The notes below the pieces were generated by a model. It was not told where the DNA came from, did not search any database, and was given only the letters and a program-made list of their open reading frames with translations. The translations under genes and the position numbers were made by a program. A stretch of 64,000 nt of DNA. Source: Odontesthes bonariensis (taxonomy: Eukaryota > Chordata > Actinopteri > Atheriniformes > Atherinopsidae). Positions 24,684 through 63,991 of the stretch are shown piece after piece. The first letter of the stretch is position 1. Each line of letters starts with the position of its first letter. The DNA lies in NCBI RefSeq assembly GCF_027942865.1, contig NC_134509.1:28962197-29026196 (forward strand), given 5' to 3'.

Positions 24684-24890
24684 CTTGGTAAACAAAGACT
24701 GACATAGAAACAACACCATTAAACACATTCGTTCTATGGATGCCAGAAACCCATCAGCCACCAGTCCTTATAAGACAATATCAGAATCAAATCGTTTGTT
24801 GTCGATCAACTTAAGGCATTAAATGGACTCTGATGGATGCGACTGCTTCAAGAAGACGCGTGGAAATCTTTTGTTTTCTTTCCTTTCATT

Positions 24891-38469: not shown

Positions 38470-39617
38470 TCAGCAGCTTTCCTCTTTCATGATCAAAATG
38501 TCCTTCTTCGTTTTACTGCGGAGAAAACATGACATGATATGGTCTTGATTTAGTTTGTCAGCTGAGACTTAGTTCAACATTGTAAGTAAACAAAGAGCAA
38601 GGCAAGACATTCTTCTGAGATAACAGGCATCAAATTTGACATATTTTTCATAGGGTGTGTGGGGGAGCTGGACATAAAGTGATAAAAGTGATGGATGTCA
38701 TTTGTGTTAAAAGACAGAGAACCTTTCATCAATAGAGGACGACATAAGCGCTTTATTCTCTATAAAAATCAAATGGGATTGTGAAGTAATGTGTGAATGC
38801 TGTGAGTGTGGAGCAGCTGTGTGTACTCACTGTCTCTCGACACAGAGAGCACACTCATTGGGGTAAGTGTTTCCATCGCTGCCACACACAGGGTCAAGAT
38901 TATAAGGGCATGCCAAAATCATCGCTGTGTAGGGACACGAGGGCTGCCAAAAATATAAAAGTTAGAATCTGATATAAAATTCTAATAGATTTTGACACGA
39001 CTTTAAAGATCAGTAAACAAGAGAGATTATCTTTCTATTTGTTGTTCTGCACACGCACGCAGCACAACACAAACATACTTTCCCATATATACCTGTGAAC
39101 ACAAAAGTTTCTAGTAATAAATCAATGTTACCTTTCTCATGGGTCCAGACTTGTCCGCGGCATCTTTAAAACAAACACTTTTTAAAATGAAGAATAAAAT
39201 AACCTCCCACCTAATACAGACTAAATATAACAGGCTTACTGAAACAAATGACATGAAAGGAGGTTGGAAATAGAAAAAGGCAACTAATGAATATAATACT
39301 ATAATATTTTAGTACAGTATCTATGAAAGCATGTCATCAAGTGTTTCGTATCTTACATTTAAAATTTAGATCATTATCATTATTATGTCTCTGTGACATG
39401 AAAATAAAAGTTTATGGTGATAAGTGTCAAAGACGTTGCACAGAAATAGTTCTAATTCTAAAAAGAAAGAGTTAAACCGTCCTTTATCATTTAAATATGA
39501 CAGAGTTCAGACCATCATACTTCAAAAAGTAGCGTGTTTCTTTTCAAAAGTATTTAAATCTTTACCTGCAATGACACAGATGAGCAGTAGTCCCAGAAAA
39601 ACAGCTTTCCCAGCCAT
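38470..39617 (-). CDS. Kazal-type serine protease inhibitor, copy A (P1 Tyr)
   Basis: Secreted SPINK-like inhibitor of 80 residues in four exons: 39617-39566 (ATG, hydrophobic signal [15 protein letters not shown]), 39163-39132 (DAADKSGPMRK), 38943-38831 (most of the Kazal domain), 38515-38470 ([14 protein letters not shown] then TGA). All phases join. The six cysteines have spacings 8-7-10-2-17; the last four spacings equal those of SPINK1, whose first spacing is 6. The Kazal core [12 protein letters not shown] is intact. The reactive loop is CPYNLDPVC, so the residue at the SPINK1 P1 position is Tyr, predicting chymotrypsin-like targets. First and most diverged of three intact tandem copies. 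I cannot name the orthologue. Confidence 0.93.
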
Positions 39618-40220
39618 GATGTTGTTGGATGAATAACTCAGAATAGCAGTGAGTGTAGCTCTGTTTTACAGGTACTTTTATTGCTTGTGGGCGTGGTATA
39701 GTGGGTTGAGCAGCTGATGAAAACAGACACACAACCCCTTGCAAACTCTAGAAATGTAGTCATCAACACACATTACTCACACAAACAAACATGATGTGAA
39801 CATATTTTTTGTTTAATCAGTAGCTGCAAACTTCCATGTGACCAGCCCACATTTGCTTTTTTTATATCCAGCACACAACCAAAGCAAAAAAAGCAAGGAT
39901 AACCAAATCAGGAGTCTTTTTTTTTTCAAAATGTATGAATCTTTTTTAATGTAAAGAGTAACTATGCACAATGGGTAACAGACACAAACAGCTTTAATAC
40001 TTAAAAATGTAAACAAATAATAATATTGAGCACAAGAAGAGAAATTCCACCTTAAAACATCCCTTCACGTCTCTTTATGTCTCTATCATCTCTGCTTTTC
40101 ACCATTTCACATAAGCCTTTGCTCTTTATTTCACGTTAGGAACTAATCTTTTACTGCTCTTTTTTATCTCAATTATGTCAGCGTTCCAGTGCAGAGATTT
40201 GTTTTACATGTTTCACTTGC

Positions 40221-40540
40221 TCAACTCCCGGCTGGGGCTTTTCTGTGTGGAGTTTGCATGTTCTCCCTGTGTATGCGTGGGTTCTCTCCGGGTACTCCGG
40301 CTTCCCCCCACTGTCCAAAAACATGCATGTTAGGTTAACTGGTGTCTCTAAAATTGTCCTTAGGAGTGAGTGTGAGCGTGTCTCTGGTTGTTTGTCTGGT
40401 TTGTCTCTGTGTGGCCCTGTGATGGACTGGTGACCTGTCCAGGGTGTACCCTGCCTCTCACAAGATGATCGCTGGGATAGGCTCCAGCCCCCCCTCGACC
40501 CGACCGACGGATTCAGCGGGTATAGAAAATGGATGGATGG
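40221..40540 (+). mobile_element. 5'-truncated GGATG-tailed SINE, breakpoint at its tail
   Basis: Inserted after TTTCACTTGC upstream of copy A, at exactly the same site as the SINE at 55528-55848 upstream of copy B. It starts TCAACTCCCGGCTGGGGC and ends in GATGGATGGAT. Instead of the expected second TTTCACTTGC, the tail runs directly into CCCTGAGTTGCACTTATCC, which belongs to the 3' flank of a SPINK unit. A recombination breakpoint therefore sits here. Confidence 0.85.
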
Positions 40541-40727
40541 ATCCCTGAGTTGCACTTATCCACAAATATCTGCTTTATGTCAATTTTGAGCGTCAGTGAG
40601 ATGGCAGTGTTTTTTCTGGCTTGTGTTAGTCAAGATTACACAATGGCAAGTAATGCTTTTAAAATCAGTTAATTGGACATTAAATCCACCCTTCAGTTTT
40701 GAGAGAAAGGTGAACCAGATGTCCACT

Positions 40728-41229
40728 TTGCAAGGCAAGGCAAGGCAAGGCAAGGCAAGGCAAGGCAAGGCAAGGCAAGGCAAGGCAAGGCAAGGCAAGG
40801 CAAGGCAAGGCAAGGCAAGGCAAGGCAAGGCAAGGCAAGGCAAGGCAAGGCAAGGCAAGGCAAGGCAAGGCATCTTTATTTATATAGCGTATTTCATACC
40901 ACAGGCAACTCAATGTGCTTTACATAAAGACAAGGCATTTAAAATAACAGAAAAACAAGCAATTTATAGAGAATAAAAAATTAGAATAAAACTTAAAACA
41001 CAGTTAAAAGCAATCAAAGAAGAGGGGAAAAAGAAAAATATAAACTCAACCATAAGCACAGTGAGAGAGAAATGTTTTTAACCTGGATTTAAAAGTGCTT
41101 ACAGTTGGGGCTGATTTCAGTTCTGTTGGTAGTTTGTTCCAGTTGTGTTCAGCATAACAGTTAAAAGCTGCTTCACCGTGTCTAGTTTGAACTCTGGGCT
41201 CCATTATCTGACCTGAGTCAGTAGATTCC
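40728..41229 (-). mobile_element. 5'-truncated L2 LINE with expanded (CCTTG)n tail
   Basis: Interrupts the 3' flank of the broken SPINK copy: CAGATGTCCACTTT on the left and CCAGCTGGACAACTTG on the right are contiguous near 38210 and 56740. The left end is the tandem pentamer (listed separately), then TTTATTTATATAGCG and CAATGTGCTTTACATAAA. The body matches the end of the L2 ORF at 41.9 kb (AGCTGCTTCACCGTGTCTAG). Confidence 0.85.
40732..40872. repeat. (CAAGG)n pentanucleotide array
   Basis: About 28 uninterrupted CAAGG copies, the 3' tail of the flanking minus-strand L2. The L2 at 41689 carries the same motif only three or four times, so this tail has expanded. The repetitive frames translated from it (Leu-Ala-Leu-Pro-Cys repeats) are artefacts. 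Confidence 0.97.
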
Positions 41230-41474
41230 AGCTGGACAACTTGTCTTCATGAGTAATCTTGCTGAGTTCATTTCCCAGTACAGATAGGAGAGAGAGATCC
41301 AGCTAACTATATTAGCTTATTAAACCACACTTTTAAAGATTGATCACAAACACACTGATGATTGAACTTTTTGATTTTTTTTTTTTAATTTGGAGCAGGT
41401 GATGTCATTCTTTGAGATCATTTTTGACTTGATCATGATTAACCTCTTTGCGATGACGTCACCAGCCATGCGCG

Positions 41475-41520
41475 TCAGCAACTTTCCTCTTTCATGATCA
41501 AAATGTCCTTCTTCGTATTT
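41475..41520 (-). pseudogene. Orphan fourth exon of a broken SPINK copy (copy D)
   Basis: The last Kazal exon is preserved (acceptor CTGCGGAG on plus, coding [17 protein letters not shown]), with one Lys-to-Asn change relative to copies A-C. Its 3' flank starts abruptly at about 40541 and its upstream intron is cut at 41604 by the transposon nest. The intron resumes for about 35 bases at 52528. Exons 1-3 are absent. Confidence 0.88.
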
Positions 41521-41688
41521 CTGCGGAGATAATCATGACATGACATGGTCTTGCTTTAGTTTGTCAGCTGAGACTTAGTTCAACTTTGTGTCATTGTACG
41601 TAAATGTGATGCTCATGGAATGTGAGCATCACATTTATATTATTTCTGTGAAAGAAATATGTTAAAATAAGCCAGAATGGTCAATTAA

Positions 41689-44039
41689 TAGGCAAAGCAA
41701 GGCAAGGCAATTTTATTTATAGAGCACAATTCATACACAGGGCAATTCAAAATGCTTTACAGCTACACAAAATCACAAGAAGGCAATAAAACCATTAAAA
41801 AGGAATAAAAAAAACTAAAAGAAAGAAATTAAAAAAGAAAGAAATTTAAGACCCATTAAAATAATCATTAATTAATTAAAAAGTGAAGAGTGCAGATAAA
41901 ATACTTTCAGGTGTCATATGCACAGCTAAATAGAACTGTTTTCAGCCTGGATTTAAACATTGTCAGAGTTGAGGCCTGTCTGACATCTTCTGGAAGACTG
42001 TTCCAGATTTTAGGGGCATAAAACTGAAACGCAGCCTCACCTTGTTTAGTCCTGACTCTGGGCACCAGCAGGAGACCCCTCCCTGAGGTTCTCAGAGCCC
42101 GAGTTGGTTCATATGGCTCTAACATGTCAGAGATGTACTTTGGCGCTTGACCGTGAAGAGACTTGTACACAAGCAGAGCTGTTTTAAAGTCTATTCTCTG
42201 AGCGACAGGAAGCCAGTGCAGAGACCTGAGCACTGGACTAATATGGTCGTATTTCCTGGTTCTAGTCAGGACTCGAGCAGCAGCGTTCTGGATGTACTGC
42301 AGCTGTCTTACAGCCCGTTTAGAGAGCCCAGTGAGCAGGCCGTTACAGTAGTCTAACCTGCTGGAGACAAACGCATGGATCAGTCTCTCTAAGTCTGGTT
42401 TAGACACTATTCCTTTGATTCTGGCAATGTTTTTTAGATGGTAAAAAGCTGCTGATGTTACAGATTTAATGTGGCTGTTAAAGTTCAGGTCTGAGTCCAA
42501 TATTACCCCGAGATTTCTAACTTGATAGTTAGGGTTTAGAGAGAGAGTCTCAAGGTGACTGATAACACTTTCTCTTTGTTTCTGTGGGCCACAGACAATG
42601 ATTTCAGTTTTGTCTGAGTTTAGCTGGAGGAAATTGTTTTGCATCCACACACTGATCTGTTCGATGCAGCGACACAATGTATCTACAGGCCCGTGTTCTC
42701 CTGCCGTCAGTGACACGTAGATCTGAGTGTCATCTGCATAATTGTGGTAGGACACATTATAGCTGCGTATTAGCTGGCCTAGTGGAAGCATGTACAGATT
42801 GAACAATACGGGTCCCAGGATTGACCCCTGGGGAACCCCACAGATCATAGCCATTTGGTCTGAGACACAGTTACCAATTTCAACAAAATATTTCCTGTCC
42901 TGGAGATAGGACTTGAACCAGTTTAAAGCACGACCAGAGATTCCCACCCAGTCTTCTAACCTCTGTAATAAGATCACATGGTCAAAGGCAGCACTCAGGT
43001 CCAGCAGAACTAAGACTGTGACTCTACTTGCATCTGTGTTCAGGCGGATGTCATTTGTCACCTTGATCAGAGCTGTCTCAGTGCTGTGGTGGGGCCTAAA
43101 GCCTGATTGGAAAGTATCAAAAGCATTGTTAGACAGGAGAAAGTCACTAAGCTGTTGGTATACAACTTTTTCTAGGACTTTGCCTAAGAATGGCAGGTTT
43201 GATATGGGCGGGTAGTTGTTCAGTACTGTGGCATCAAGATTGCTCTTCTTTAGAAGAGGCTTAATGACAGCGGTTTTTAAGGCCTTTGGAAATGTTCCAG
43301 TCTGGAGTGAGATGTTGACTAGATGAGCAAGTTGTGGTAACAAACTGCTCAGCACAGACTTTAGGAATCTAGTGGGCAACTCATCAAGGCAGCACGTTGA
43401 TGAACTCAGACTGCAGATGGTCTCTTCGACTGTTTTGTCAGTAACAGGTGTGAAATGTGTCAGCTCTAGGTGTCTAGCTGGCTGCAGAGTAGTTATTTGT
43501 GTTGCGGAAATTATTGCATTTTTAATGCCTTGAACTTTGTCATTAAAGAATATTGCAAACTCATTACACTTAGATGTAGAAATGAGTTCTAAAGGCAGTG
43601 AAACTGGAGGGTTTGTTAATCTGTTTACTGTAGCAAACAGGACACGAGAGTTGTTACTGCAGTTTTTGATGATTTCAGAAAAATAACTCTCCCTTGTTCT
43701 ACGCAAAGTCTGGTTGAACACACATAGCTTTTCTTTGTAAGTCTCATAATGAACCTGGAGCTTTGACTTGCGCCATTTCCGTTCGGCTCTCCGGCACTCC
43801 CTTTTCTGTGCCCTGACCGACTCTTCTTTCCTCCATGGCGCCCTTTGCCTACTTTTAACCATTCTAACCTTGACAGGAGCAATGGTATCCAAAACATTTA
43901 AGAGACTTGATGTGTAAGAGTTCAACAGATCATCAACATCAGAACACAGGGTGTTCTCAAACCTAATCATTTCCATAAACTGTGTCCCTGTTCTGTCATT
44001 TATGAGTCTTCCCCGAACAACTGCATCTTGGTAAGAGCG
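41689..44039 (-). mobile_element. 5'-truncated L2-clade LINE
   Basis: A 2.35-kb element. Its plus-strand left end is short GCAAGG repeats then TTTTATTTATAGAGCAC and CAATTCAAAATGCTTTAC (3' end of the LINE). CAATTAA occurs on both sides (41682-41688, 44040-44046), a plausible target duplication. The right end cuts off the endonuclease portion of the ORF. It lies inside the composite nest. Confidence 0.85.
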
Positions 44040-44042
44040 CAA
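41907..44042 (-). CDS. L2 LINE reverse transcriptase, 711-codon open frame
   Basis: Non-LTR retrotransposon ORF2, lacking the N-terminal endonuclease but with an unbroken reverse transcriptase. Motifs in order: SGFRPHHSTETALIKVTNDI (finger), VLVLLDLSAAFDH (motif A, catalytic Asp), CGVPQGSILGPVLFNLYM (motif B), HNYADDTQIYVS (motif C), LQLNSDKTEIIVCG (motif D), and the C-terminal SLHWLPVAQRIDFKTALLVYK. Compared with relatives, which usually read AAFDTVDH, three residues after the motif-A Asp seem missing (AAFDH). The frame runs through the element edge at 44042, so the annotated Met is not a native start. The lack of stops implies a young insertion. Confidence 0.85.
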   Translation of the reverse strand: MRSYQDAVVRGRLINDRTGTQFMEMIRFENTLCSDVDDLLNSYTSSLLNVLDTIAPVKVRMVKSRQRAPWRKEESVRAQKRECRRAERKWRKSKLQVHYETYKEKLCVFNQTLRRTRESYFSEIIKNCSNNSRVLFATVNRLTNPPVSLPLELISTSKCNEFAIFFNDKVQGIKNAIISATQITTLQPARHLELTHFTPVTDKTVEETICSLSSSTCCLDELPTRFLKSVLSSLLPQLAHLVNISLQTGTFPKALKTAVIKPLLKKSNLDATVLNNYPPISNLPFLGKVLEKVVYQQLSDFLLSNNAFDTFQSGFRPHHSTETALIKVTNDIRLNTDASRVTVLVLLDLSAAFDHVILLQRLEDWVGISGRALNWFKSYLQDRKYFVEIGNCVSDQMAMICGVPQGSILGPVLFNLYMLPLGQLIRSYNVSYHNYADDTQIYVSLTAGEHGPVDTLCRCIEQISVWMQNNFLQLNSDKTEIIVCGPQKQRESVISHLETLSLNPNYQVRNLGVILDSDLNFNSHIKSVTSAAFYHLKNIARIKGIVSKPDLERLIHAFVSSRLDYCNGLLTGLSKRAVRQLQYIQNAAARVLTRTRKYDHISPVLRSLHWLPVAQRIDFKTALLVYKSLHGQAPKYISDMLEPYEPTRALRTSGRGLLLVPRVRTKQGEAAFQFYAPKIWNSLPEDVRQASTLTMFKSRLKTVLFSCAYDT

Positions 44043-44204
44043 TTAAAAAGCTTCTCAGTGTCACCAGTAGGGGGCAGTGTGGGCAGTTGCTTCTCCGCAA
44101 CTCTTGTTTACTTCCTCATTCTATCGAGCAAAGCTACACTGAACAGAAGCAAACGGCCGCCTGTCTCATTCTTTCTCCTGTTTTACAGGTTGATGGTGTT
44201 TTAA

Positions 44205-45881
44205 AGGTCCTATGGCATGAAATTTTCATTTTTTAAGGTTGTTTAACATTAATATGAGATTCCCTAGCCTGCCTGCGGTCCCCCAGTGGCTAAAAATGAC
44301 TATAGACCTAAACCATGCACTGGAAATTATTCTCCGCCTTTGGAAATGTGACCATGCAGATGGCCTGATCGGGAAAGCTGCCTGTTATGACGTGGCACCT
44401 GTTATGACGTGGAGGTTGTTTCCACCCAGAGCCAATAAACTGCCTTTCCCCGCCCACAGCTCTTTGGCCAGCTCATTGCTCTGTACGTAAAAAATCTGTT
44501 TAGAGCTCCTGCATCAGAACCTCTAAAGAGCCAGTGGACAGATTTTGTTTTTTTCTGGGAAAGTGACGACAGAACCGAAGAGATTTGTGTATGTGTGCGC
44601 CAAATATTTCACAGACGAATGTTTCCAGAACTTGGGCTTATACCGAGCCCAAGGGAGAGCCCAGACACCCTGCGGAGGAAACTCATTTCAGCCGCTTGTA
44701 TTCGCGATCTCATTCTCTCTGTCACTACCCACAGCTCGTGACCATAGGTGAGGGTTGGAACATAGATTGACCGGTAAATGAGAGCTTCGCCTTATGGCTC
44801 AGCTCATTTTTCACCACAACGCGCCGATGCTGAGACCACTGCAGACACCGCACCGATCCGCCTGTCAATCTCCTGCTCCATTCGCCCCCTTACTTGGGGA
44901 AGGATCTCATTCCAGAGTAAGTAATTTAACGCTCTATTATTGTGTTGCTTTCCTGTATGTACAGTATAGTTACATAGCTTGTTACCACAGGAAAGGGTTT
45001 GTATCGTTAGCAGCTAACGTTAGCTAACGGTTAGCTATGCAGCTAATAGCATCTGCACGCTCTTATCTCTGTCAACTGGGCTGTTTGAGGTGTTTGCATG
45101 TCCATGAGATGGTTAGCTCGCTCATTTTAGACCAAAACCCCTACTTCAAGCTTCCTGAAGAAGAATGAATCCGCAAATTCAGTGCATTTCATCAGGATAA
45201 TGATTAATTCATGGTTCCAGTCAAAACGGTCAGTCTGTCTGTGTCGTTAGCTCTGCAGCTAATAGCTCGGTCACTGTCGCTAATGTAACGGTAAATAGCA
45301 TGAGGTATGCGAGTGGACACCTCATTTACTGTAACACGAGTGTTGTGTACTTATTAGTTGTTTTGATAGCCTTCCTGCTGTTGGTGTTATGGCGCGCACG
45401 ATATCTGCCTTTCCCCTGATTGAAATGACTCACGCTACGTGCATCTTTGCAAAACAGAGCAATCAGCTGAGAATGTCAAAATTCTCACTCCTGCTTTCCC
45501 CTTCACGCACCCCTTTTTTTGCTGTGTCTTGTGTAGCACTTGCTTGATGTTTGACTGTGTTAGGAGAGTTGTTCAGTAACTAGTTCGTCATATTGTCAAA
45601 GTAAGCTCATATCAACAGGTTTCGCTAGTTTTACGGCATAGGGCTGCCGTACCATCTACGTGCCATAGCGATTCACAAAACATTTGCGCAAGGTACCACG
45701 GGCGTAAGTAAGGCCACACCCCCACTAAACAGCTCAATCTGGGGATCCTAAGGAAAGTTCATTTTTGGGACTGGCTGTAATTCAGAATTTTGGGGAAAAA
45801 AACTCAGATACAGTATTAGGGGACCACTAAAGCCTATAAAAATATATAAAAGCCTCCATTTATTTTCATGCCATAGGAACT
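44205..45881. mobile_element. TTAA-flanked non-autonomous DNA transposon with Rex3 inside
   Basis: Inverted ends AGGTCCTATGGCATGAAA and TTTTCATGCCATAGGAACT are bounded by TTAA at 44201-44204 and 45882-45885. The body includes TCAGATACAGTATTAGGGGA and CCTAGCCTGCCTGCGGTCCC, which I recognise as a common teleost repeat. No transposase. A Rex3 piece occupies about 44651-44918. Assignment to piggyBac rests on the TTAA only. Confidence 0.7.
44651..44918 (-). mobile_element. Rex3 (RTE) fragment
   Basis: The block AAGGGAGAGCCCAGACACCC continuing to GATCTCATTC is near-identical to 46515-46580 in the larger Rex3. It extends further (GTGACCATAGGTGAGGGTTGG) into a part deleted from that copy. Dead internal fragment. 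Confidence 0.75.
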
Positions 45882-46087
45882 TTAAAACTTATATAACTAC
45901 CCACATTTGTGTTATACATCTAAATATGATGTTAGATCGATTTCTTAAGGGTACTGGCAATGTTTGGATATTTTTCTGAGCAAGTGGCAAAGCATATTGT
46001 TCTATGTGTGATCCAAGATGGCGCCATGGTAAACTTCTTTTTCTGTTGTGACCAAACCAGGTCGTAGTTTCTGGCTCCAGCACATTT

Positions 46088-46185
46088 CCATCCATCCATC
46101 CATCCATCCATCCATCCATCCATCCATCCATCCATCCATCCATCCATCCATCCATCCATCCATCCATCCATCCATCCATCCATCA
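46088..46185. repeat. (CATC)n tetranucleotide array, Rex3 3' tail
   Basis: About 24 copies of CATC (GATG on the element's own strand) form the 3' tail of the minus-strand Rex3. The repetitive WMDG and HPSI reading frames here are artefacts of the array. Confidence 0.97.
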
Positions 46186-46597
46186 TCTTCCGCTTCTCCG
46201 GGGGTCGGGTCGCGGGGGCAGCAGCTTAAGCAGAGAAACCCAGACATCCCTGTCCCCGGCCACTTCCTCCAGCTCTTCTGGGGGGACCCCGAGGCGTTCC
46301 CAGGCCAGCCGAGAAACATAGTCTCTCCAACGTGTCCTGGGTCTTCCCCGGGGCCTCCTCCCAGTGGGACGGGCCCGGAACACCTCACCAGGGAGGCGTC
46401 CAGGAGGCATCCTAACCAGATGCCCGAGCCACCTCATCTGACTCCTCTCGATGCGGAGGAGCAGCGGTTCTACTCCGAGCCCCTACCGGATGACCGAGCT
46501 TCTCACCCTATCTCTAAGGGAGAGCCCAGACACCCTGCGGAGGAAACTCATTTCGGCCGCTTGTATTCGCGATCTCATTCTTTCGGTCACTACCCAC

Positions 46598-47798
46598 TAG
46601 GGCTGACGGCAAATAATCGATTGGTCGTTGGTCGACCAAAAAAATTACCAGTCGACCAAATTCCATTGGTTGATTAGTCGCAGGAAAAAAAAAAAAGCCG
46701 CGTCTCGTCAAAGGGCTCCCGGGACTTTTAATTTGAAGGGCTTGACAAAGGAAGACGTCAAACAAATCAAAACGGTAATTTCGTGTCACAAGGACAGAAC
46801 GATCAGTTAGCGCGTAACCCGTCCTGGGGTAACGTCCAAGAAGTTCGTTGCGCAGGGCACACTTTGCAGCGGTGCATCAATGCGGCTCTTAAAAAAGATC
46901 CCATTTGCCTTGTCATAGCAGCTGCCAGACGTCTTTTTGGACATTTTAAGAAAAGTGCCAAGGGCCTTGGCCTTGGCCCAAGGCTACAGCGGCTCTCACT
47001 GAAAAACAAATACAACAGAACGTTGTTGAACACAAACTCATCCAGGATGTCTCCACGAGATGGAACTCCACTGCATGTTGGAGCGCCTTCTGGAACAGAG
47101 GTGGCCGGTCACCGCTGTACTTTCTGACCCCGTTACCACACACAGATCACGGCCGCGCTGTCATCCTCGCGCAGCAACAGGTTTATTTATTTTATTTTGG
47201 TGACGTCTTTTCATGTTTATGAGCATGGGCAGCGTGGCAGAGAGATGCATTAACATCTTGTGAAAGTAACTCGGTAAGTGTGACCATCGGCTTCAGCACC
47301 GACACTGTCTGTTATCCTCCATTGGACCGTGGTGAGATCCAAATCGCGGTCAGAATGTTCAAAGTCCGTCTGTCTTTCTGATTATTTTTTGTGACACATT
47401 CAGAATGTCAAAATCTGAAATAATTTGCCCGTGTAAAGAGAGGGCAGACTTGAAGCACCCGGCTTGTGCGCTTGTAAAATTCTGCTTGTCAGCCAATGGT
47501 CACTAACGTCGGGTTTTTTCTCACTCTCCGACAGAGAAGAACTGAGCAGTCAATTGATTTTTGTGTAGGCTATAGGCCTAGTGTTTAGACGAACCAGGAA
47601 ACATTTTGGTAAATGCGCATAGATGCGGCAGCCGGGCATTAAAGGTAAATGTTGTTGTTTAAAAAAAAAAAAATCAAATTTTTTTTTATTTATTTATTTA
47701 TTTATTTTTTTTGGGGGGGGGGGGTCGATTAGTCGATTAATCGGAGTAAATGACGACCACTGGTCGATCAACAAAATCCTTGGTCGTGGACAGCCCTA
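46598..47798 (+). mobile_element. hAT transposon relic nested in Rex3
   Basis: Ends TAGGGCTGACGG and GGACAGCCCTA, with an exact 8-bp duplication CTACCCAC (46590-46597, 47799-47806) of Rex3 sequence. Plus-strand frames keep broken pieces of a ZBED-type hAT transposase: AGHTLQRCINAALKKDP near 46857 and a shifted MLERLLEQRWPVTAVLSDP near 47075. Subterminal motifs repeat GTCGACCA and GATTAGTCGA. 1,201 bp, inactive. Confidence 0.88.
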
Positions 47799-48390
47799 CT
47801 ACCCACAGATTTGGAGGTGCTGATTCTCATCCCAGCCGCTTCACACTCAGCTGCAAACCACTCCAGTGAGAGCTGAAGGTCACGGCCCGACGACGCCAAC
47901 AGAACCACATCGTCCGCAAAGAGCAGAGACCCGATTCTGAGGTCGCCAAAACGGACCCCCTCAACGCCTTGGCTGCACCTAGAAATTCTGTCCATAAAAA
48001 TTATGAACAGAATCGGTGACAAAGGGCAGCCCTGACGGAGTCCAACCCTCACAGGAAACATGTCCGACTTACTGCCGACAATGCGGACCAAACTCTGACA
48101 CCGTTCATACAGAGACCGAACAGCCCATATCAAGGGGTCCGGCACTCCATACTCCCGGAGCACTCCCCACAAGAGTCCCCGAGGGACACGGTCGAACGCC
48201 TTCTCCAAGTCCACAAAACACATGTAGACCGGGTATAGAGCTGGTCTACTGTTCCACGGCCAGGACGAAAACCACACTGCACCTCCTGAATCCGAGATTC
48301 GATTATCCAGCGGATCCTCCTCTCCAGTACCCCCGAATAGACCTTACCAGGGAGGCTGAGGAGTGTGATCCCCCTATGGTTGGAACACAC

Positions 48391-48912
48391 TGTTATAAAT
48401 TGGCTTTATTCTTAGACTTTATGTATTCATATTCTGTAGTTCTCTAGATGATCTATTTTCCTAGTTTGTACGGTACACTCTGCTCATACAACGCAAATGT
48501 ATGTCCAACACTTTAAGATGACGTAGCGGGATAAAATAACTGGGTCAGATAAAGCGTCTCTTAGGACAGATAGGTCTGGTGCAGTAGATACACGCCTGAA
48601 ACAACACTCACACACACACATCGCTTATCACATCCAAAGAACATGACGAAGACGGTGGATGGCCTGCTCACAGCATGAGTAAATATTCAATGATGCGTCA
48701 TCAAATGTAGGTACAACCTCTGAGATAAGGGTGAACATAAATATGAAATGTTTCCAGATCTCGGGGCTTGGCGAGACGGATTTCATGCGAGAACTCTGTC
48801 TCTCCAAGTCCAGTGCTGATACTTGACCTGTGACCTCCAATAAATACTTTGTTTAACTTAAGACTGCTCCAACTGGTTCTTGGGCTTCCAATATAAAGAA
48901 CCGGATCTAACA
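48391..48912 (+). mobile_element. Solo LTR nested in Rex3
   Basis: A 522-bp segment beginning TGTTATAAATTGG and ending CGGATCTAACA interrupts the Rex3 sequence, which would otherwise read GGAACACACCCTCCGG. A poly(A) signal AATAAA lies near 48840, in the right place for an LTR on the plus strand. Flanking tetramers are ACAC and GCAC, a 3/4 match that may be a decayed target duplication. No internal retroelement genes are present, so this is a recombined solo LTR. Family unknown. Confidence 0.7.
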
Positions 48913-50262
48913 GCACCCTCCGGTCCCCTTTTTTAAAGAGGGGGACCACCACCCCAATCTGCCAGTCCAGAGGCACTGCCCCCGTTGTCCACGCGATGCT
49001 TCAGAGGCGTGTCAACCAAGACAGCCCTACAACATCCAGAGCCATGAGGAACTCAGGACGAACCTTATCCACCTCAGTTTTTTGACCACCTTGGCAACCT
49101 CAGCCCCAGGAATGGGGGCCCCACGTCCAAGCTCCCCAACTCTGCTTCCTCATCGGAAGGCGTGTCGGTAGGATTGAGGAGGCCCTCAAAGTATTCCCCC
49201 CACCAACTCACGACGTCCCTAGTTGAGGTCAGCAGAGCCCCGCCCTCACCATACACGGTGTTGACGGTGCACAGCCCCCCCCCCCTGAGCCGCCGGATGG
49301 TGGACCAGAAACTCTTCGAGGCCAGCCGGAAATCATTCTCGATTGGCCTCCCCGAAATCCTCCCAAGCCCGAGTTTTTGTTTCAGCAACCGCCGAGGCCG
49401 CGTTCCGCTTGGCCTGTTTTTACCCATCAGCTGCTTCCACAGTCCCACTGGCCAAAAAGGCCCGATAGGACTCCTTCTTCAGCTTGACGGCTTCCCTCAC
49501 CACTGGTGTCCACCAGCGGGTTCAGGGATTGCCGCCAAACAGGTACCGACCACCTTACGGCCACAGCTCCGGTCGGCCGCCTCAACAATGGAGGCACGGA
49601 ACATGGCCCATTCGGGCTCAATGTCCCCCACCTCCCCCGAGACATGGCTGAAGCTCTGCCGGAGGTGGGAGTTGAAACTCCTCCTTACAGGGGATTCCGC
49701 CAGCCGTTCCCAACAGACCCTCACAATACGTTTGGGCCTGCCAGGTCTGACCGGCTTCCTCCCCCACTAGCGGAGCCAACTCACCACCAGGTGGTGATCA
49801 GTTGACAGCTCCGCCCCTCTCTTCACCCGAGTGTCCAGGACATACTGCTGCAAGTCTGACGATACAACCACAAAGTTGATCATCGAGCTGCGGCCTAGGG
49901 TGTCCTGGTGCCAAGTGCACATATGGACACCCTTATGCCTGAACATGGTGTTCGTTATGGACAGTCCGTGACGAGCACAGAAGTCCAATAACAAAACACC
50001 ACTCTGATTCAGATTGGGGGGGGGGGGGGGCGCGTTCCTCCCAATCACGCCTTTCCAGGTGTCACTGTCATTGCCCACGTGAGCATTGAAGTCCCCCAGC
50101 AGGACGAGGGAGTCTCCCGGAGGAGCACTCTCCAGTGCCTCCTCCAGGGACTCCAAAAAGTGTGGGTACTCTGAACTGCTGTTCGGTGCATAAGCACAAA
50201 CAACAGTCAGGACCCGTCCCCCCACCCTAAGGTGGAGGGAGGCTACCCTCTCGTAAACCAAT

Positions 50263-52047
50263 AGCAGTGTTTAAATCTGTCATATGACTTTATGGATGCC
50301 ATTTTGAACCCCTTTTCTGCAGACATTTTCACAGGGAGGAGCCTCAACACTTGACTTGATCACAAACACTTGACATTTTTCAACTGGTAAAAAATATATA
50401 TATTCGATAAAAGGCGAGTTAAGTTCATTATTCTGTAGTTTATTGCACTGTACTTGATCATTAAATAATAGAAAATGTGTATGTTGCCATATGGCAACAC
50501 CGTACCATTATGAATTGTTAGCCTGGCATGTTGATAACATTTAGTATTTAGTTATAGGCCTATATTGTTTAAAAGCATCTTGTAAACTTTATGGACTCAG
50601 GCTCCACAACCATGTAGAATCATTTAGTTATTTTTTCAGGTCCATCAATTTGACAGATACACATTTGACTGTTGTAGTAAAGTGTAGTAATGGTCTGGCC
50701 TGCAACTTTGAGCTGTACACTGGTGCAATCTTGCCAATGGAAGGAATGCCAGACATCGGGGCAAGTGGCAACGTCGTTTTACGACTTGCGAGCATAATGC
50801 CAGGCAACCAGTCCCACAAGATGTTTTTTGATAACTGGTTCACCAGTGTAGATATCCAAGTCGCTCTCCAGAAGAAAAAGATCCACTGTGTTGGAACAGT
50901 GCGCCAAAATTGCCTGGCAGGGTGCAGCTTCTCTGCAGATCTGGCAATGAAAAAGAAAGGCAGGGGGACCTTTGAAGAGAAAAAAACCGAGCATGATGAA
51001 GTCCAGCTCAGGGCAGTGAAATGGTATGACAACCGTGCTGTCACACTCCTCTCAACCTTTGGCTCAGCTAACCCCACGGTGTCTGTGCAAAGATGGGACA
51101 AGAAACAAAACGAAGCGCTGGAGGTTACGTGCCCAAGTATCGTCCAGACCTACAACAAAAGCATGGGAGGAGTGGATCTCCTAGATTCACTCATTGCTCT
51201 TTACCGAACGAAGCTGAGGTCTAGGAAATTGTACTACAGGATTGTGTTCCACATGATGGATTTCACCCACGTCAACGCCTGGCTCTTGTACCGCAGGGAC
51301 TGCAGCATCCCACAGAGAGAGGTCCACAGCCTACTCCAGTTCAAAAGTGAGGTTGCAAGCTGCCTTTGCATGCCTTTGTATGGAGAGGAAAGTCCTGAAG
51401 AAGAGGGGAAGACCCTCCCAGCATATTGAGGCAGAGCTGGCCAGGAAGAGGAACAGAGGTCCCACTTCACCAGTGCCACCAGCAGCTGTGCGTCAGGACA
51501 ACACTGATCACTGGCCTGTCGTCATGCCAAAAAAGGGCCGATGCAAATACCCAGGCTGCACTGGTATTGTCAGAGCTCAGTGCACGAAGTGTGATGTCTA
51601 CCTGTGCCTCACAACTGAGAATAACTGCTTCATCAATTTCCACAAGCAGTAAGGCAAAGACGGCCAAGACACTCAGATCATATCCAAACAATTACTCAAA
51701 TGATATAGCACAAAAATTTGAATTAAACGATGAAAAATGTCTTTTTAAATGGTTTTTACTTTCAAATGAGATGCATTCTTAACTGTTCAGGCTACTGGGG
51801 ATTGTTGAGACTATAACATGAGTTTTTAAATAAATGTTGTTACAATTTTAAACAAAACTCTCTTGTTTTCATTACTTTCCACTATCGTACAGTGTTGCCG
51901 TATGGCAACGAATCCTAAAAACTACTAAAAAAATAATATTTTCTGAAAATGTCTCTTGATTATGTTTACTTGGTCTATTTTAAGACAAAAAAACACCCAA
52001 AACTTTTTTTTTTTAACAACTGGGATCACAATGCGTACCATAGAGGG
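50263..52047 (+). mobile_element. 5'-truncated piggyBac-type transposon
   Basis: The right end reads CATAGAGGG then TTAA (52048-52051), the reverse of the TTAACCCT start typical of piggyBac elements. No matching left end is visible. A pair of 16-bp palindromes flanks the transposase: GTTGCCATATGGCAAC at 50483 and GTTGCCGTATGGCAAC at 51894. A TTTTTTCAG just before 50640 resembles a splice acceptor feeding the transposase frame. Confidence 0.7.
50641..51652 (+). pseudogene. piggyBac (PGBD-like) transposase, truncated and frameshifted
   Basis: The frame to 51429 carries the second half of the DDE domain: FELYTG, KMFFDNWFTSVD (conserved second Asp region), VKWYDNRAVTLLSTF, SIVQTYNKSMGGVDLLDS (third Asp region), and VNAWLLYRRDC. 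The C-terminal cysteine-rich domain lies in another frame (51347-51652: KRGRPSQHIEAEL, then CKYPGCTG, CTKCDVYLC, NCFINFH). One frameshift near 51350-51390 therefore separates them. The N-terminal half, including the first catalytic Asp, is absent. Confidence 0.88.
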
Positions 52048-52688
52048 TTAAGAGCAATATGTTTCTTTTTATTTATTGAGGTTAAGGTAGGAGAACATGT
52101 GAGGGCCTATATGTTTTATATTTCATGGTATTATTTTTAGGAGTTGTAAACTAAATGGTAGCTCAGTTAATTGACTGAATAAGAATGTATTAATGCAGTG
52201 GTCCACTGAACTCAAGATTATTCTTTATGAAGAATTGGAAAATGTGTGTTTTATTTGGAAACAAGAGGGTTATGCTGTAACTAGCCTATATGTATTTTGG
52301 TTTCTGATATTATGGCTGTTGTACTGCTAACTGACAATTGAATATGGAAAAACAAAATACAGAAAAGGGATAAAAGAGAAAAGGAGAGAGATATTTTGCA
52401 AATTGATAAATAAATTCTACTGAGCGAAGCTGCACTGAACAGAAGCGAACTGTCGCCTGTCTCATTCTTTCTCCTGTTTTACAGGAACCTTATCTGTGTA
52501 CAGGTATTCTGTCTGGGACCTGTTACATAAACAAGGAGCAAGGCAAGACAATCTTCTGAGATAACACACTGATGATTGAACTTTTTTATTCATGGCAATG
52601 AATTTGGAGCAGCTGATGTCATTCTTTGAGATCTTTTTTGACTTGATCACGATTAGCCGCTTTGCGATGACGTCACCAGCCATGCGCA

Positions 52689-54035
52689 TCAGCAGCTTTC
52701 CTCTTTCATGATCAAAATGTCCTTCTTCGTTTTTCTGCGGAGAAAACATGACATGATATGGTCTTGATTTAGTTTGTCAGCTGAGACTTAGTTCAACTTT
52801 GTGTCATTGTAAGTAAATAAAGAGCAAGGCAAGACATTCTTCTGAGATATCAGGCATCAAATTTGACAAATTTGTCATAGGGTGTGTGGGGGAGCTGGAC
52901 ATAAAGTGATAAAAGTGATAGATGTCATTTGTATTTAAAGATAGAGAAAATCATCACTTTGAAAGTGGGTCAAGAGGTTTCAAAATCAGCTACCCACTGA
53001 CAAAATAAATGTCCAGTCATCATCTCTCTCGCATTTTCAAAGGCTAAAAGAAGAATCACTAATAACCTCTTACTTGTTTTTATAGAAATAACTGGAAAGC
53101 TGGGAATCATTTAAATCAATTACCAAGCTTTAAATTGTTTCACCACCAGAGAACGACATAAGCGCTTTATTCTCTATAAAAATCAAATGGGATTGTGTTG
53201 AAGTAATGTGTGAATGCTGTGAGTGTGGAGCAGCTGTGTGTACTCACTGTCTCTCGACACAGAGAGCACACTCGTTGGCGTAAGTGTTTCCATCGCTGCC
53301 ACACAGAGGGGCAAGATTCAAAGGGCATGCCAAAATCGCCTCTGTGTCAGGACACGAGGGCTGCCAAAAAATATAAAAGTTAGAATCTGACATTAAATTC
53401 TAATAGATTTTGACACGACTTTAAAGATCAGTAAACAAGAGAGATTATCTTTCTATTTGTTGTTCTGCACACGCACACAGCACAACACAAACATACTTTC
53501 CCATATATACCTGTGAACACAAAAGTTTCTAGTAATAAATCAATGTTACCTTTCTCATGAGTCCAGACTTGTCCGCAGCATCTTTAAAACAAACACTTTT
53601 TAAAATGAAGAATAAAATAACCTCCCAGCTAATACAGACTAAATATAACAGGCTTACTGAAACAAATGACATGAAAGGAGGTTGGAAATAGAAAAAGGCA
53701 ACTAATGAATATAATACTAGAATATTTTAGTACAGTATCTATGAAAGCATGTCATCAAGTGTTTCGTATCTTACATTTAAAATTTAGATCATTATCATTA
53801 TTATGTCTCTGTGACATGAAAATAAAAGTTTATGGTGATAAGTGTCAAAGACGTTGCACAGAAATAGTTCTAATTCTAAAAAGAAAGAGTTAAACCGTCT
53901 TTTATCATTTAAATATGACAGAGTTCAGACCATCATACTTCAAAAAGTAGCGTGTTTCTTTTCAAAAGTATTTAAATATTTACCTGCAATGACAAAGATG
54001 AGCAGTAGTCCCAGAAAAACAGCTTTCCCAGCCAT
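52689..54035 (-). CDS. Kazal-type serine protease inhibitor, copy B (P1 Leu)
   Basis: Same four-exon plan as copy A: 54035-53984 (signal [15 protein letters not shown]), 53581-53550 ([11 protein letters not shown]), 53360-53248 (Kazal core), 52734-52689 ([17 protein letters not shown]); 80 residues, all phases good. The reactive loop is CPLNLAPLC, giving Leu at P1, which predicts elastase- or chymotrypsin-like targets. The [12 protein letters not shown] core is intact. Introns are closer to copy C than to A. Its 3' flank is cut about 160 bases beyond the stop, where a short piece of copy D intron (52528-52562) joins it. Confidence 0.93.
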
Positions 54036-54288
54036 GATGTTGGTGGATGAATAACTCAGAATGACAGATAGCAGTGGGTGTTGCTCTGTTTTACAGGTAC
54101 TTTTATTGCTTGTGGGCGTATGTGTGTGGGAACACAGCAGATGAAAACAGACACACAACCCCTTGCAAGATCTAGAAATGAAGTCATCAACACACATTAC
54201 TCACACAAACAAACATGATGTGAACATATTTTTTGTTTAATCAGTAGCTGCAAACTTCCATGTGACCAGCCCACATTTGCTTTTTTTT

Positions 54289-55155
54289 TAGGGCTGGGAA
54301 AAGATTCAAATTTTCAATCTAATTAATCACATGATTTCCTTGATTAATCACGATTAATCGCATTTGTACGCAAAATCCAAAAATGAATTCAAAAGTAGTG
54401 TATAGCTTTTAGCATTTAGTTTTATTTTAAATGTGCTGCCATATGAATGAAAGTGCCATAACATTTGTTGTGCAAACACACTTTTAACATCAGCATTTTT
54501 ATGTATTTTTTCTGTAGAAGCCTCGCTCCACTGTCTGTTTCCTTGAATGACTTGCTGGTATCAATTGTGTGCTTTGTCTTTAGGTGATATTTTAGACTGG
54601 AACTACTACGGTGATAAGACAATTCAACTTGGCAGTGTTTACAGATGACTTTGGTTCTGTCGACTCCGCCGTCTGGAAGAACTTTAAAATGAAAATGGCC
54701 GAGTAAAAGTTCCGTACCCTTCTCCATGTTTGGTGGATCCGCCAATTACTTTCTTTTCCGGTTCTGCAGCAGACAGCAGCAGACTTTTACAAAATAAAAG
54801 CCTGTGAGCAACAGAGTTTTACAATAATAAAATAAATACTAAAACAGGGGTGGTCCGTGGTGTAGTGGGTTGAGCAGGCGCCCCATGTACAAGAGGCTAC
54901 AGTCCTCGCTGCAGCTGGCCCCGGTTCGAGTTCCGCATCGGACAGCCCTTTGCTGCATGTTGTTCCCCCTCTCTCTGCTTCCTTTCTCTCTAAACTTTCC
55001 TGTCCATTAAAGGCACAAAAGCCCTCGCATTTATTTATTTTTTCATTAAAAAAAATAAAAAAATAAAACGTGCGTTAATGCGCGATAAAATATTTATCGA
55101 CGTTAAATAATTAATGCGTTGACGCAATAATAACGAGTTAATTCGCCCAGCCCTA
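54289..55155 (-). mobile_element. hAT-derived element retaining a BED zinc finger
   Basis: Ends TAGGGCTGGG and CGCCCAGCCCTA are inserted into the CTTTTTTT run upstream of copy B; both sides show CTTTTTTT, consistent with an 8-bp hAT duplication. The site is empty upstream of copies A and C. Minus-strand frame 54745-54422 encodes a BED-type finger (VICKHCQVELSYHR, LKYHLKTKH). A SINE is nested at 54848-55040. Subterminal GATTAATCAC and GTTAATGCG motifs repeat. Confidence 0.85.
54848..55040 (+). mobile_element. tRNA-derived SINE nested in hAT element
   Basis: The head has an A-box-like GTGTAGTGGGTTGAGC and a B box GGTTCGAGTTCC, followed by a CT-rich body and AAAGGCACAAAAGCCC. The head would not fold as a functional tRNA. 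Related to the remnant at 6385-6545. Confidence 0.75.
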
Positions 55156-55527
55156 CTTTTTTTTTTTATATCCAGCACACAACCAAAACAAAAAAGCAAG
55201 GATAACCAAATCTGGAGTCTTTTTTTTTTTTTTCAAAATGTATGAATCTTTATTAATGTAAAGAGTAACTATGCACAATGGGTAACAGACAGAAACAGCT
55301 TTAATACTTAAAAATGTAAACAAATAATAATATTGAGCACAAGAAGAGAAATTCCACCTTAAAACATCCCTTCACGTCTCTTTATGTCTCTATCGTCTCT
55401 GCTTTTCACCATTTCACATAAGCCTTTGCTCTTTATTTCACGTTAGGAACTAATCTTTTACTGCTCTTTTTTATCTCAATTATGTCAGCGTTCCAGTGCA
55501 GAGATTTGTTTTACATGTTTCACTTGC

Positions 55528-55848
55528 TCAACTCCCGGCTGGAGCCTTTCTGTGTGGAGTTTGCATGTTCTCCCAGTGTATGCGTGGGTTCTCTCCGGGT
55601 ACTCCGGCTTCCTCCCACTGTCCAAAAACATGCATGTTAGGTTAACTGGTGTCTCTAAAATTGTCCTTAGGAGTGAGTGTGAGCGTGTCTCTGGTTGTTT
55701 GTCTGGTTTGTCTCTGTGTGGCCCTGTGATGGACTGGTGACCTGTCCAGGGTGTACCCCGCTTCTCGCCCGATGACAGCTGGGATAGGCTCCAGCCCCCC
55801 CGCGACCCGACCGACGGATTCAGCGGGTATAGAAAATGGATGGATGGA
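55528..55848 (+). mobile_element. 5'-truncated GGATG-tailed SINE upstream of copy B
   Basis: Begins TCAACTCCCGGCTGGAGCC and ends GGATGGATGGATG. TTTCACTTGC is duplicated on both sides (55518-55527, 55849-55858). The orthologous site near copy C (about 58937) is empty, while copy A has the same insertion at 40221. Confidence 0.88.
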
Positions 55849-56993
55849 TGTTTCACTTGCACATCTTTACTTCTGTATAGTGGAAACAAAAGGCTGTTAA
55901 GCCTATAAAGTGCTCAAATTCTTAAAAAGAAAAAAAAAAAAAAAGAATTTCCAAGGACAAGGATCAGATCCTCAGTTGGTACAAGTTTGTAGATCCCAGA
56001 GATAATAGAAACCCCTTCCAAGATTTGCACAAGACAGGGCACCTGTTATGATGATCTGCCATCAATTTCAACCCTGGACGTGATTTTATTTTTTGGACTA
56101 TAAAGCATTACAAGCACAATTCTGGTGGACATGGTCATCTGGACCAACATTTGTGAAATGTATTCAAACTTGTAAAGAAAGTTCATTTCTGCATAAAATA
56201 CAAATGATTTACAATTACTATCCCCTTCCATGTGTCTTGTTGTTAAGCTAAATAATTGCTTTCTTTTTTTACCACAAAAATCATTTTAACAAGCTATCTA
56301 CCCTGACTTTTTGGTCAGTTGGTATATTACCCAAATGCATTACACCAAAGGTGTAATTAAGCTTTGATACAACAAACATTTGATCTCAACAGCTTTTACT
56401 TTGCTAATAGGACTCAATTACGGGACAATTCCAAAATATATGAAGTTACATTGTCCCCAGCAGTACCCAGACGCTGGTGTCGCATTCAGCAAAACTTTCT
56501 ACTCTGATTATAAACCCATTTCAGTTTCTTCCTCTATATTTGTACTTTTATCAAAGTAATCCCTGAGTTGCACTTATCCACAAATATCTGCTTTATGTCA
56601 ATTTTGAGCGTCAGTGAGATGGCAGTGTTTTTTCTGGCCTGTGTTAGTCAAGATTACACAATGACAAGTAATGCTTTTAAAATCAGTTAATTGACATTAA
56701 ATCCACCCTTCAGTTTTGAGAGAAAGGTGAACCAGATGTCCACTTTCCAGCTGGACAACTTGTCTTCATGAGTAATCTTGCTGAGTTCATTTCCCAGTAC
56801 AGATAGGAGAGAGAGATCCAGCTAACTACATTAGCTTTTTAAACCACACTTTTAAAGACTGATCACAAACACACTGATGATTGAACTTTTTTATTCATGG
56901 CAATGAATTTGGAGCAGCTGATGTCATTCTTTGAGATCATTTTTGACTTGATCACGATTAGCCTCTTTGCGATGACGTCACCAGCCATGCGCG

Positions 56994-58337
56994 TCAGCAG
57001 CTTTCCTCTTTCATGATCAAAATGTCCTTCTTCGTTTTTCTGCGGAGAAAACATGACATGATATGGTCTTGATTTAGTTTGTCAGCTGAGACTTAGTTCA
57101 ACTTTGTGTCATTGTAAGTAAACAAAGAGCAAGGCAAGACATTCTTCTGAGATATCAGGCATCAAATTTGACAAATTTGTCATAGGGTGTGTGGGGGAGC
57201 TGGACATAAAGTGATAAAAGTGATGGATGTCATTTGTATTTAGAGACAGAGAAAATCGTCACTTTGAAAGTGGGTCAAGAGGTTTCAAAATCAGCTACTC
57301 ACTGACAAAATAAATGTCCAGTCATCATCTCTCTCGCATTTTCAAAGGCTAAAAGAAGAATCACTAATAACCTCTTACTTGTTTTTATAGAAATAACTGG
57401 AAAGCTGGGAATCATTTAAATCAATTACCAAGCTTTAAATTGTTTCACCACCAGAGAACGACATAAGCGCTTTATTCTCTATAAAAATCAAATGGGATTG
57501 TGTTGAAGTAATGTGTGAATGCTGTGAGTGTGGAGCAGCTGTGTGTACTCACTGTCTCTCGACACAGAGAACACACTCGTTGCCGTAAGTGTTTCCATCG
57601 CTGCCACACACAGGGTCATAATTCTTAGGGCATGCCAAAATCGCCTCTGTGTCAGGACACGAGGGCTGCCAAAAAATATAAAAGTTAGAATCTGATATAA
57701 AAATCTAATAGATTTTGATACGACTTTAAAGATCAGTAAACAAGAGAGATTATCTTTCTATTTGTTGTTCTGCACACGCACACAGCACAACACAAACATA
57801 CTTTCCCATATATACCTGTGAACACAAAAGTTTCTAGTAATAAATCAATGTTACCTTTCTCATGAGTCCAGACTTGTCCGCAGCATCTTTAAAACAAACA
57901 CTTTTTAAAATGAAGAATAAAATAACCTCCCAGCTAATACAGACTAAATATAACAGGCTTACTGAAACAAATGACATGAAAGGAGGTTGGAAATAGAAAA
58001 AGGCAACTAATGAATATAATACTAGAACATTTTAGTACAGTATCTATAAAAGCATGTCATCAAGTGTTTCGTATCTTACATTTAAAATTTAGATCATTAT
58101 CATTATTGTCTCATGACATGAAAATAAAAGTTTATGGTGATAAGTGTCAAAGACGTTGCACAGAAATAGTTCTAATTCTAAAAAGAAAGAGTTAAACCGT
58201 CTTTTATCATTTAAATATGACAGAGTTCAGACCATCATACTTCAAAAAGTAGCGTGTTTCTTTTCAAAAGTATTTAAATCTTTACCTGCAATGACACAGA
58301 TGAGCAGTAGTCCCAGAAAAACAGCTTTCCCAGCCAT
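56994..58337 (-). CDS. Kazal-type serine protease inhibitor, copy C (P1 Lys)
   Basis: Four exons: 58337-58286 (signal [15 protein letters not shown]), 57886-57855 ([11 protein letters not shown]), 57665-57553 (Kazal core), 57039-56994 ([17 protein letters not shown]); 80 residues, phases good. The reactive loop is CPKNYDPVC with Lys at P1, as in trypsin-inhibiting SPINK1, so trypsin is the expected target. The core [12 protein letters not shown] is intact. This copy lacks the SINE insertion shared by A and B and may keep the ancestral upstream arrangement. Unit span about 56136-59215. Confidence 0.93.

Positions 58338-61017: not shown

Positions 61018-63991
<2,974 letters not shown>

Follow-up and report, generated by a model that had tools for sequence, protein, structure and literature searches.

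The stretch of DNA analysed here, a 64-kb window of the Odontesthes bonariensis genome (C4:28962197-29026196 of the 945-Mb assembly), carries three intact copies of a Kazal inhibitor gene of the SPINK type, here called c1, c2 and c3, which all lie on the minus strand in a head-to-tail arrangement. We suggest, with a probability of about two in three, that these copies arose by recent tandem duplication and that diversifying selection has since shaped them into predicted inhibitors of the trypsin (c3), the chymotrypsin (c1) and the chymotrypsin/elastase type (c2). An initial annotation made from the sequence had already proposed diversifying selection after duplication; it was right as to what is there and mostly right as to why, since the comparisons below argue for such selection, most strongly between c2 and c3 and partially for c1. 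The genes are the following.

38470..39617, minus strand: c1, SPINK-type gene with Tyr at P1 (Kazal_1, 51.2 bits); exons 39617-39566, 39163-39132, 38943-38831 and 38515-38473, stop 38472-38470
38884..38910 (38910-38884), minus strand: c1 reactive loop, CPYNLDPVC
52689..54035, minus strand: c2, SPINK-type gene with Leu at P1 (Kazal_1, 50.2 bits); exons 54035-53984, 53581-53550, 53360-53248 and 52734-52692, stop 52691-52689
53301..53327 (53327-53301), minus strand: c2 reactive loop, CPLNLAPLC
56994..58337, minus strand: c3, SPINK-type gene with Lys at P1 (Kazal_1, 56.9 bits); exons 58337-58286, 57886-57855, 57665-57553 and 57039-56997, stop 56996-56994
57606..57632 (57632-57606), minus strand: c3 reactive loop, CPKNYDPVC

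In each copy the coding exons before the stop measure 52, 32, 113 and 43 bases, every intron has GT...AG borders and the 80-codon frame is complete, so that the description of three tandem genes for 80-residue Kazal proteins with Tyr, Leu and Lys at P1 stands. All three pass the Pfam Kazal_1 profile (PF00050) at 50-57 bits against a cut-off of 21 bits, possess cysteines in Kazal order at residues 31, 40, 48, 59, 62 and 80, and retain Asn 57 (P15'), the loop-bracing Asn that corresponds to Asn56 of SPINK1. With a signal peptide, assigned on visual inspection of the hydrophobic N-terminal end, a single Kazal domain and four coding exons, the predicted products have the attributes of SPINK proteins; an NCBIfam search assigned no family to the two copies tried.

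Over the shared stretch, noncoding sequence differs at 24 of 1475 positions between c2 and c3 (1.63%), the closest pair, at 40 of 1269 between c1 and c3 (3.15%) and at 42 of 1272 between c1 and c2 (3.30%), which bears out the earlier statement that the introns are highly conserved. The same is true of the near-identity reported for signal peptide, linker and C-terminal exon, as the sole protein differences beyond exon 3 are at residue 14 (in c2) and at residues 25 and 66 (both in c1), the base responsible for the change at residue 66 being located in exon 4. The 113 bases of exon 3 show 8 differences for c2-c3, 13 for c1-c3 and 11 for c1-c2. All eight c2-c3 differences are nonsynonymous (pN 0.093) and none of the 25.0 synonymous sites is changed (pS 0), and this pair differs at only one of 126 bases in the other exons and at none for more than 200 bases of intron 3 downstream of exon 3. 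Each pair that includes c1 has two synonymous changes in exon 3 (pS about 0.08), with pN values of 0.105 and 0.127. The noncoding sites group c2 with c3 (30 changes are unique to c1, 12 and 10 to c2 and c3), and exon 3 change unique to one branch exceeds the noncoding level for c1 (p=0.009) and c3 (p=0.005).

Kazal domains touch the protease at twelve positions, P6-P3', P14', P15' and P18', two of which, P3 and P15', are nearly invariant (PMC1236909, in excerpt). Assigned by alignment to these published positions, the contact positions of the array are residues 37-45, 56, 57 and 60, and ten of them make up the hypervariable set. Five of the six amino-acid changes between c2 and c3 fall on this set (P1, P2', P3', P14' and P18') and the sixth is at P5', an enrichment within exon 3 with p=0.003 for the ten hypervariable and p=0.009 for all twelve positions (one-sided Fisher). 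Counted in bases, 7 of 36 are changed in the contact codons and 1 of 75 in the remaining exon 3 codons, which are thus at background like the other exons. The outcome that the initial annotation had named as speaking against its proposal, namely loop change no higher than that of the introns, is not what we observe: the twelve contact codons exceed noncoding sequence in all three pairs (one-sided Fisher, p=0.0079 for c1-c2, 2.6e-5 for c1-c3 and 4.1e-6 for c2-c3, in tests that are mutually non-independent). Along the c2-c3 alignment, P1-P18' is moreover the most changed window of 57 bases, with 8 differences as compared to a maximum of 5 in windows that are entirely noncoding (p=0.0012, 0.12% of 5000 shuffles). 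Since c2 and c3 differ at five hypervariable contact positions, it is the contact surface and not the loop alone that is affected, and the changes as aligned span this surface as a whole. The earlier view that change is concentrated in the loop is therefore correct in so far as the loop lies above the noncoding level, but drawn too narrowly, because the changes reach P14' and P18' and, in c1, P10, P8 and P7.

A number of observations weigh against this interpretation or limit it to a part of the array. The window scan taken globally is nonsignificant for c1-c2 (0.84) and c1-c3 (0.11). Contact enrichment within exon 3 is likewise nonsignificant for c1-c3, where four of seven amino-acid changes are at hypervariable positions (p=0.07 for the ten, 0.14 for the twelve positions), and for c1-c2, where three of seven are (p=0.27 and 0.41); the weakness in these pairs arises because c1 has also changed at P10, P8 and P7. 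Their pN/pS ratios in exon 3 are just modestly above 1, and the c2 branch by itself shows no significant excess (3/113 versus 12/1269, p=0.12). The two-base changes at P1 and at P2' may each represent a single mutation event, although the c2-c3 comparison of contact codons with noncoding sequence still yields p=1.5e-4 when counted by codon. All of this rests on 16 variable exon 3 columns from one individual. Finally, the most divergent stretch of c1 is not exon 3 but its proximal promoter, in which a block has been exchanged for other sequence some 100-150 bases ahead of the start codon. The hottest 57-base window there contains 14 differences between c1 and c2 and 12 between c1 and c3, as opposed to 6 and 8 in P1-P18'. 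The replaced block of the c1 promoter lies at about 39690-39740, where c1 also has a deletion of 7 bases when compared with c2 and c3.

How might the array have come to its present form? Tandem duplication would have given rise to at least four copies of a gene for a small secreted single-domain Kazal inhibitor, three of which are intact. After or between the duplications, amino-acid changes accumulated at the contact surface (at P1, P2', P3', P14', P18' and also P5', and in c1 in addition at P10, P8 and P7), with signal peptide, linker, scaffold (the six cysteines and Asn P15'), C-terminal exon and introns staying nearly unchanged, and selection would have favoured differing protease targets across the copies. 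Kazal inhibitors bind in a substrate-like manner with P1 in the S1 pocket, and in SPINK1 it is Lys41 that contacts the aspartate of trypsin, with the loop being braced by Asn56 (PMC8998336, in excerpt). By this canonical mechanism the P1 residue of each array protein would enter the S1 pocket of a serine protease, and because these residues are Lys, Tyr and Leu, the predicted targets are of the trypsin type for c3, of the chymotrypsin type for c1 and of the chymotrypsin/elastase type, or subtilisin-like, for c2. These targets may be digestive or mucosal enzymes of the fish itself or proteases made by microbes and parasites. The predicted specificities are supported by analogy with a SPINK2 variant selected on chymotrypsin, which carries the loop CPYMYKPVC with Tyr at P1 and has a Ki of 0.35 nM (PMC6686015, in excerpt), and with the PSTI of 1tgs and the laboratory-made SPINK1 variants described below.

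As single secreted Kazal domains the array proteins resemble SPINK1/PSTI, and human SPINK1, PSTI variants and PEC-60 are among their best single-domain PDB matches. The resemblance is closest for c3, which shares with human SPINK1 five of the six varying residues (P1 Lys, P2' Tyr, P3' Asp, P5' Val and P18' Val) and with PSTI in 1tgs (CPKIYNPVC) the P2 Pro-P1 Lys pair. Different from SPINK1/PSTI, P1' in the array is Asn and not Ile or Gln, and there are three tandem copies with differing P1. The SPINK4/PEC-60 structure 1pce is found among the PDB matches of all three copies (47.0, 43.5 and 38.9 bits) but is the best match of none; the C-terminal exon of the array presumably resembles that of SPINK4/PEC-60. 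As regards orthology to SPINK1 or SPINK4, the PDB scores are mixed and the flanks contain ABCA1-, retinol-binding-protein-receptor- and LOTUS-type exons. These neighbours, all on the minus strand, are an ABCA1-type R1 domain exon (61238-61582), retinol-binding-protein receptor exons (32378-32674 and 29533-29853) and an OST-HTH/LOTUS domain exon (24360-24767).

The Kazal family search of the genome scored 89 candidates and gave at least 27 matches at E<=0.001, eight of which were inspected, three of these being the array. Among the other five inspected are two SPINK-type exons, both on C18, a SPINK1-like one (CTKQYDPVC, C18:2.97 Mb) and one with the loop CPLNYSPVC and a matching last exon nearby (C18:39.00 Mb; C18:38996500-39004500). 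The CPLNYSPVC gene is about 10 kb away from the contig end and has a short CCCTAA repeat just past its exon 3. A genome search for which 1725 bases of c3 served as query returned seven matching pieces, which correspond to the three genes (four pieces), a truncated fourth copy, an intron scar of 36-39 bases and the SPINK1-like exon, the sole match at the DNA level outside the array. In agreement with this, tblastn of the 10-kb flanks on both sides of the window revealed no further copy among the matches listed (best E 0.11).

The comparison of c3 with the SPINK1-like gene raises the question of where its contact surface comes from. From the second cysteine on, c3 is identical to the SPINK1-like gene at all six residues that vary between c2 and c3 (c1 at two, c2 at none) and at 17 of the 18 bases of their codons (c1 at 10, c2 at 9), and the five exon 3 bases by which c3 stands alone in the array all equal those of the SPINK1-like gene. 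Gene conversion, by which the SPINK1-like gene on the other chromosome would have overwritten exon 3 of c3, would account for these matches and for the fact that no other locus outside the array matches at the DNA level. However, the other 17 codons of c1, c2 and c3 are equally like the SPINK1-like gene (40 of 51 bases), so that array-type bases, with 11 mismatches, lie between the matching codons of c3 just as they do in c1 and c2. A single conversion tract is therefore insufficient and can be ruled out, and the several separate tiny tracts that would be required make conversion from that gene most improbable as the source of the pattern. The SPINK1-like gene further differs from the array in having one residue less between Cys 1 and Cys 2. 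Thus, c3 would either have retained an ancestral surface for trypsin inhibition, from which c1 and c2 departed, or have regained it. The two outgroups, the SPINK1-like and the CPLNYSPVC gene, both have Tyr at P2' like c3 and are discordant with each other at P1, P14' and P18'. In a stronger version, the array would be a self-built panel of inhibitors for the trypsin, chymotrypsin and elastase classes, in which c3 re-evolved the SPINK1 contact surface residue by residue. We hold this to be unlikely; if true, it would be a case of natural convergence of an entire protease-contact surface at two paralogous loci in one genome.

Recent duplication with diversifying selection has also to be weighed against explanations that do without one or the other. 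The divergence could be old, and gene conversion could have equalised the introns and other exons, with selection rejecting conversion over exon 3 and so preserving old contact differences. A head-to-tail array of near-identical units would lend itself to this. Also consistent with it are a small shoulder of four c2-c3 differences in 50 intron 2 columns, about 20-70 bases before exon 3, although this was recognised post hoc, and the Leu at P2' (CTT) that c1 and c2 have in common against c3 even though the noncoding sites pair c2 with c3, a discordance that could stem from conversion or from parallel change. An old island should however hold linked silent change, and between c2 and c3 exon 3 has none and intron 3 is clean for over 200 bases. 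We therefore regard homogenised flanks as a rather unlikely rival. Relaxed constraint, under which redundant duplicates lost their function and drifted, would fit the high amino-acid change in exon 3 as well as the decay of the fourth copy. It predicts, though, that change equals that of noncoding sequence, and the nonsynonymous sites of exon 3 in c2-c3 lie about sixfold above it (8/86 versus 24/1475, p=2e-4); in addition, frames, six cysteines and Asn P15' are intact in all three copies, and the non-contact codons of exon 3 hardly differ between c2 and c3. This excess and the counts at contact versus non-contact codons disfavour drift, which appears quite improbable to us.

The remnants of the fourth copy bear on the history of the array.

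40541..41604 (pieces 41604-41226 and 40732-40541), minus strand: truncated fourth copy that retains the last part of intron 3 along with exon 4 and the 3' flank, identified by similarity to c3
52528..52563, minus strand: 36-base intron 3 scar joined directly to the c2 3' flank (94.4% to c3 57154-57119, E=5e-10)

The fourth copy lacks exons 1-3, is interrupted by other sequence at about 41225-40733, and matches c3 at 94.2% over 379 aligned bases (c3 57122-56745) and at 97.9% over 192 bases (c3 56749-56559). The scar, which was recovered again in the genome-wide DNA search, is likely the other half of the intron 3 of this copy, split off when transposon-rich DNA of about 10.9 kb was inserted. 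On the simplest reading, a deletion would have fused the c2 flank to the fourth-copy intron 3 and the insertion would then have split the fusion. The insert carries reverse-transcriptase and transposase frames. Transposon frames lie at 41907-44042, 47768-48343, 49767-50270 and 50545-51429; those of the window comprise two RVT_1 reverse transcriptases, an endonuclease-RT domain and a DDE_Tnp_1_7 transposase.

The upstream regions differ as well.

54289..55155, no strand assigned: element of 867 bases that has inverted ends (TAGGGCTGGG/CCCAGCCCTA) and contains a fragment of a BED zinc finger (zf-BED, 36.4 bits)

This element, which we take to be hAT-like, has its insertion site some 250 bases ahead of the start codon of c2, is absent from c1 and c3, and may affect the expression of c2. 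A loose match to an E-box plus TTCCCA, which weakly resembles a PTF1-like pancreas-type promoter motif, precedes the start codons of c2 and c3 by about 107 bases (54143 and 58445, minus strand), these being the only loose matches in the window. Neither c2 nor c3 has the stricter form there, c1 lacks even the loose one, and a search of four other loci, among them the SPINK1-like one, found neither form. A pancreas-type site is thus kept as a weak lead.

The variation in the array gathers at the same contact positions, as listed in PMC1236909 (in excerpt, citing the 1987 bird study), as in the avian ovomucoid third domain studied by Laskowski, with the difference that the ovomucoids were compared between species and the array consists of paralogues with 2-3.5% noncoding divergence in one genome. 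It also recalls laboratory-made inhibitors, namely the SPINK1 variants 3 and 4 (1cgi, CTYEYRPVC; 1cgj, CTLEYRPVC), which combine a fixed Kazal scaffold with Tyr or Leu at P1, and loop-randomised SPINK2, in which the loop was altered on a constant scaffold; different from these, the array is natural. The 1cgi and 1cgj structures are, we presume, complexes with chymotrypsinogen. The literature listings contain nothing on this array or on P1 diversification in fish SPINK copies. The array is a good new example of a long-known principle, the hypervariability of contact residues in Kazal inhibitors, and as far as the aligned sequences tell it adds two points to the textbook pattern: the changes take in the contact surface as a whole, and c3 matches the SPINK1-type surface of another locus. 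The copies form a natural structure-function series, three proteins on one scaffold that differ in few residues, which would let one ask how many contact residues have to change before a Kazal inhibitor moves from one protease class to another, and which bears on whether fish protect themselves from their own digestive enzymes or from foreign proteases.

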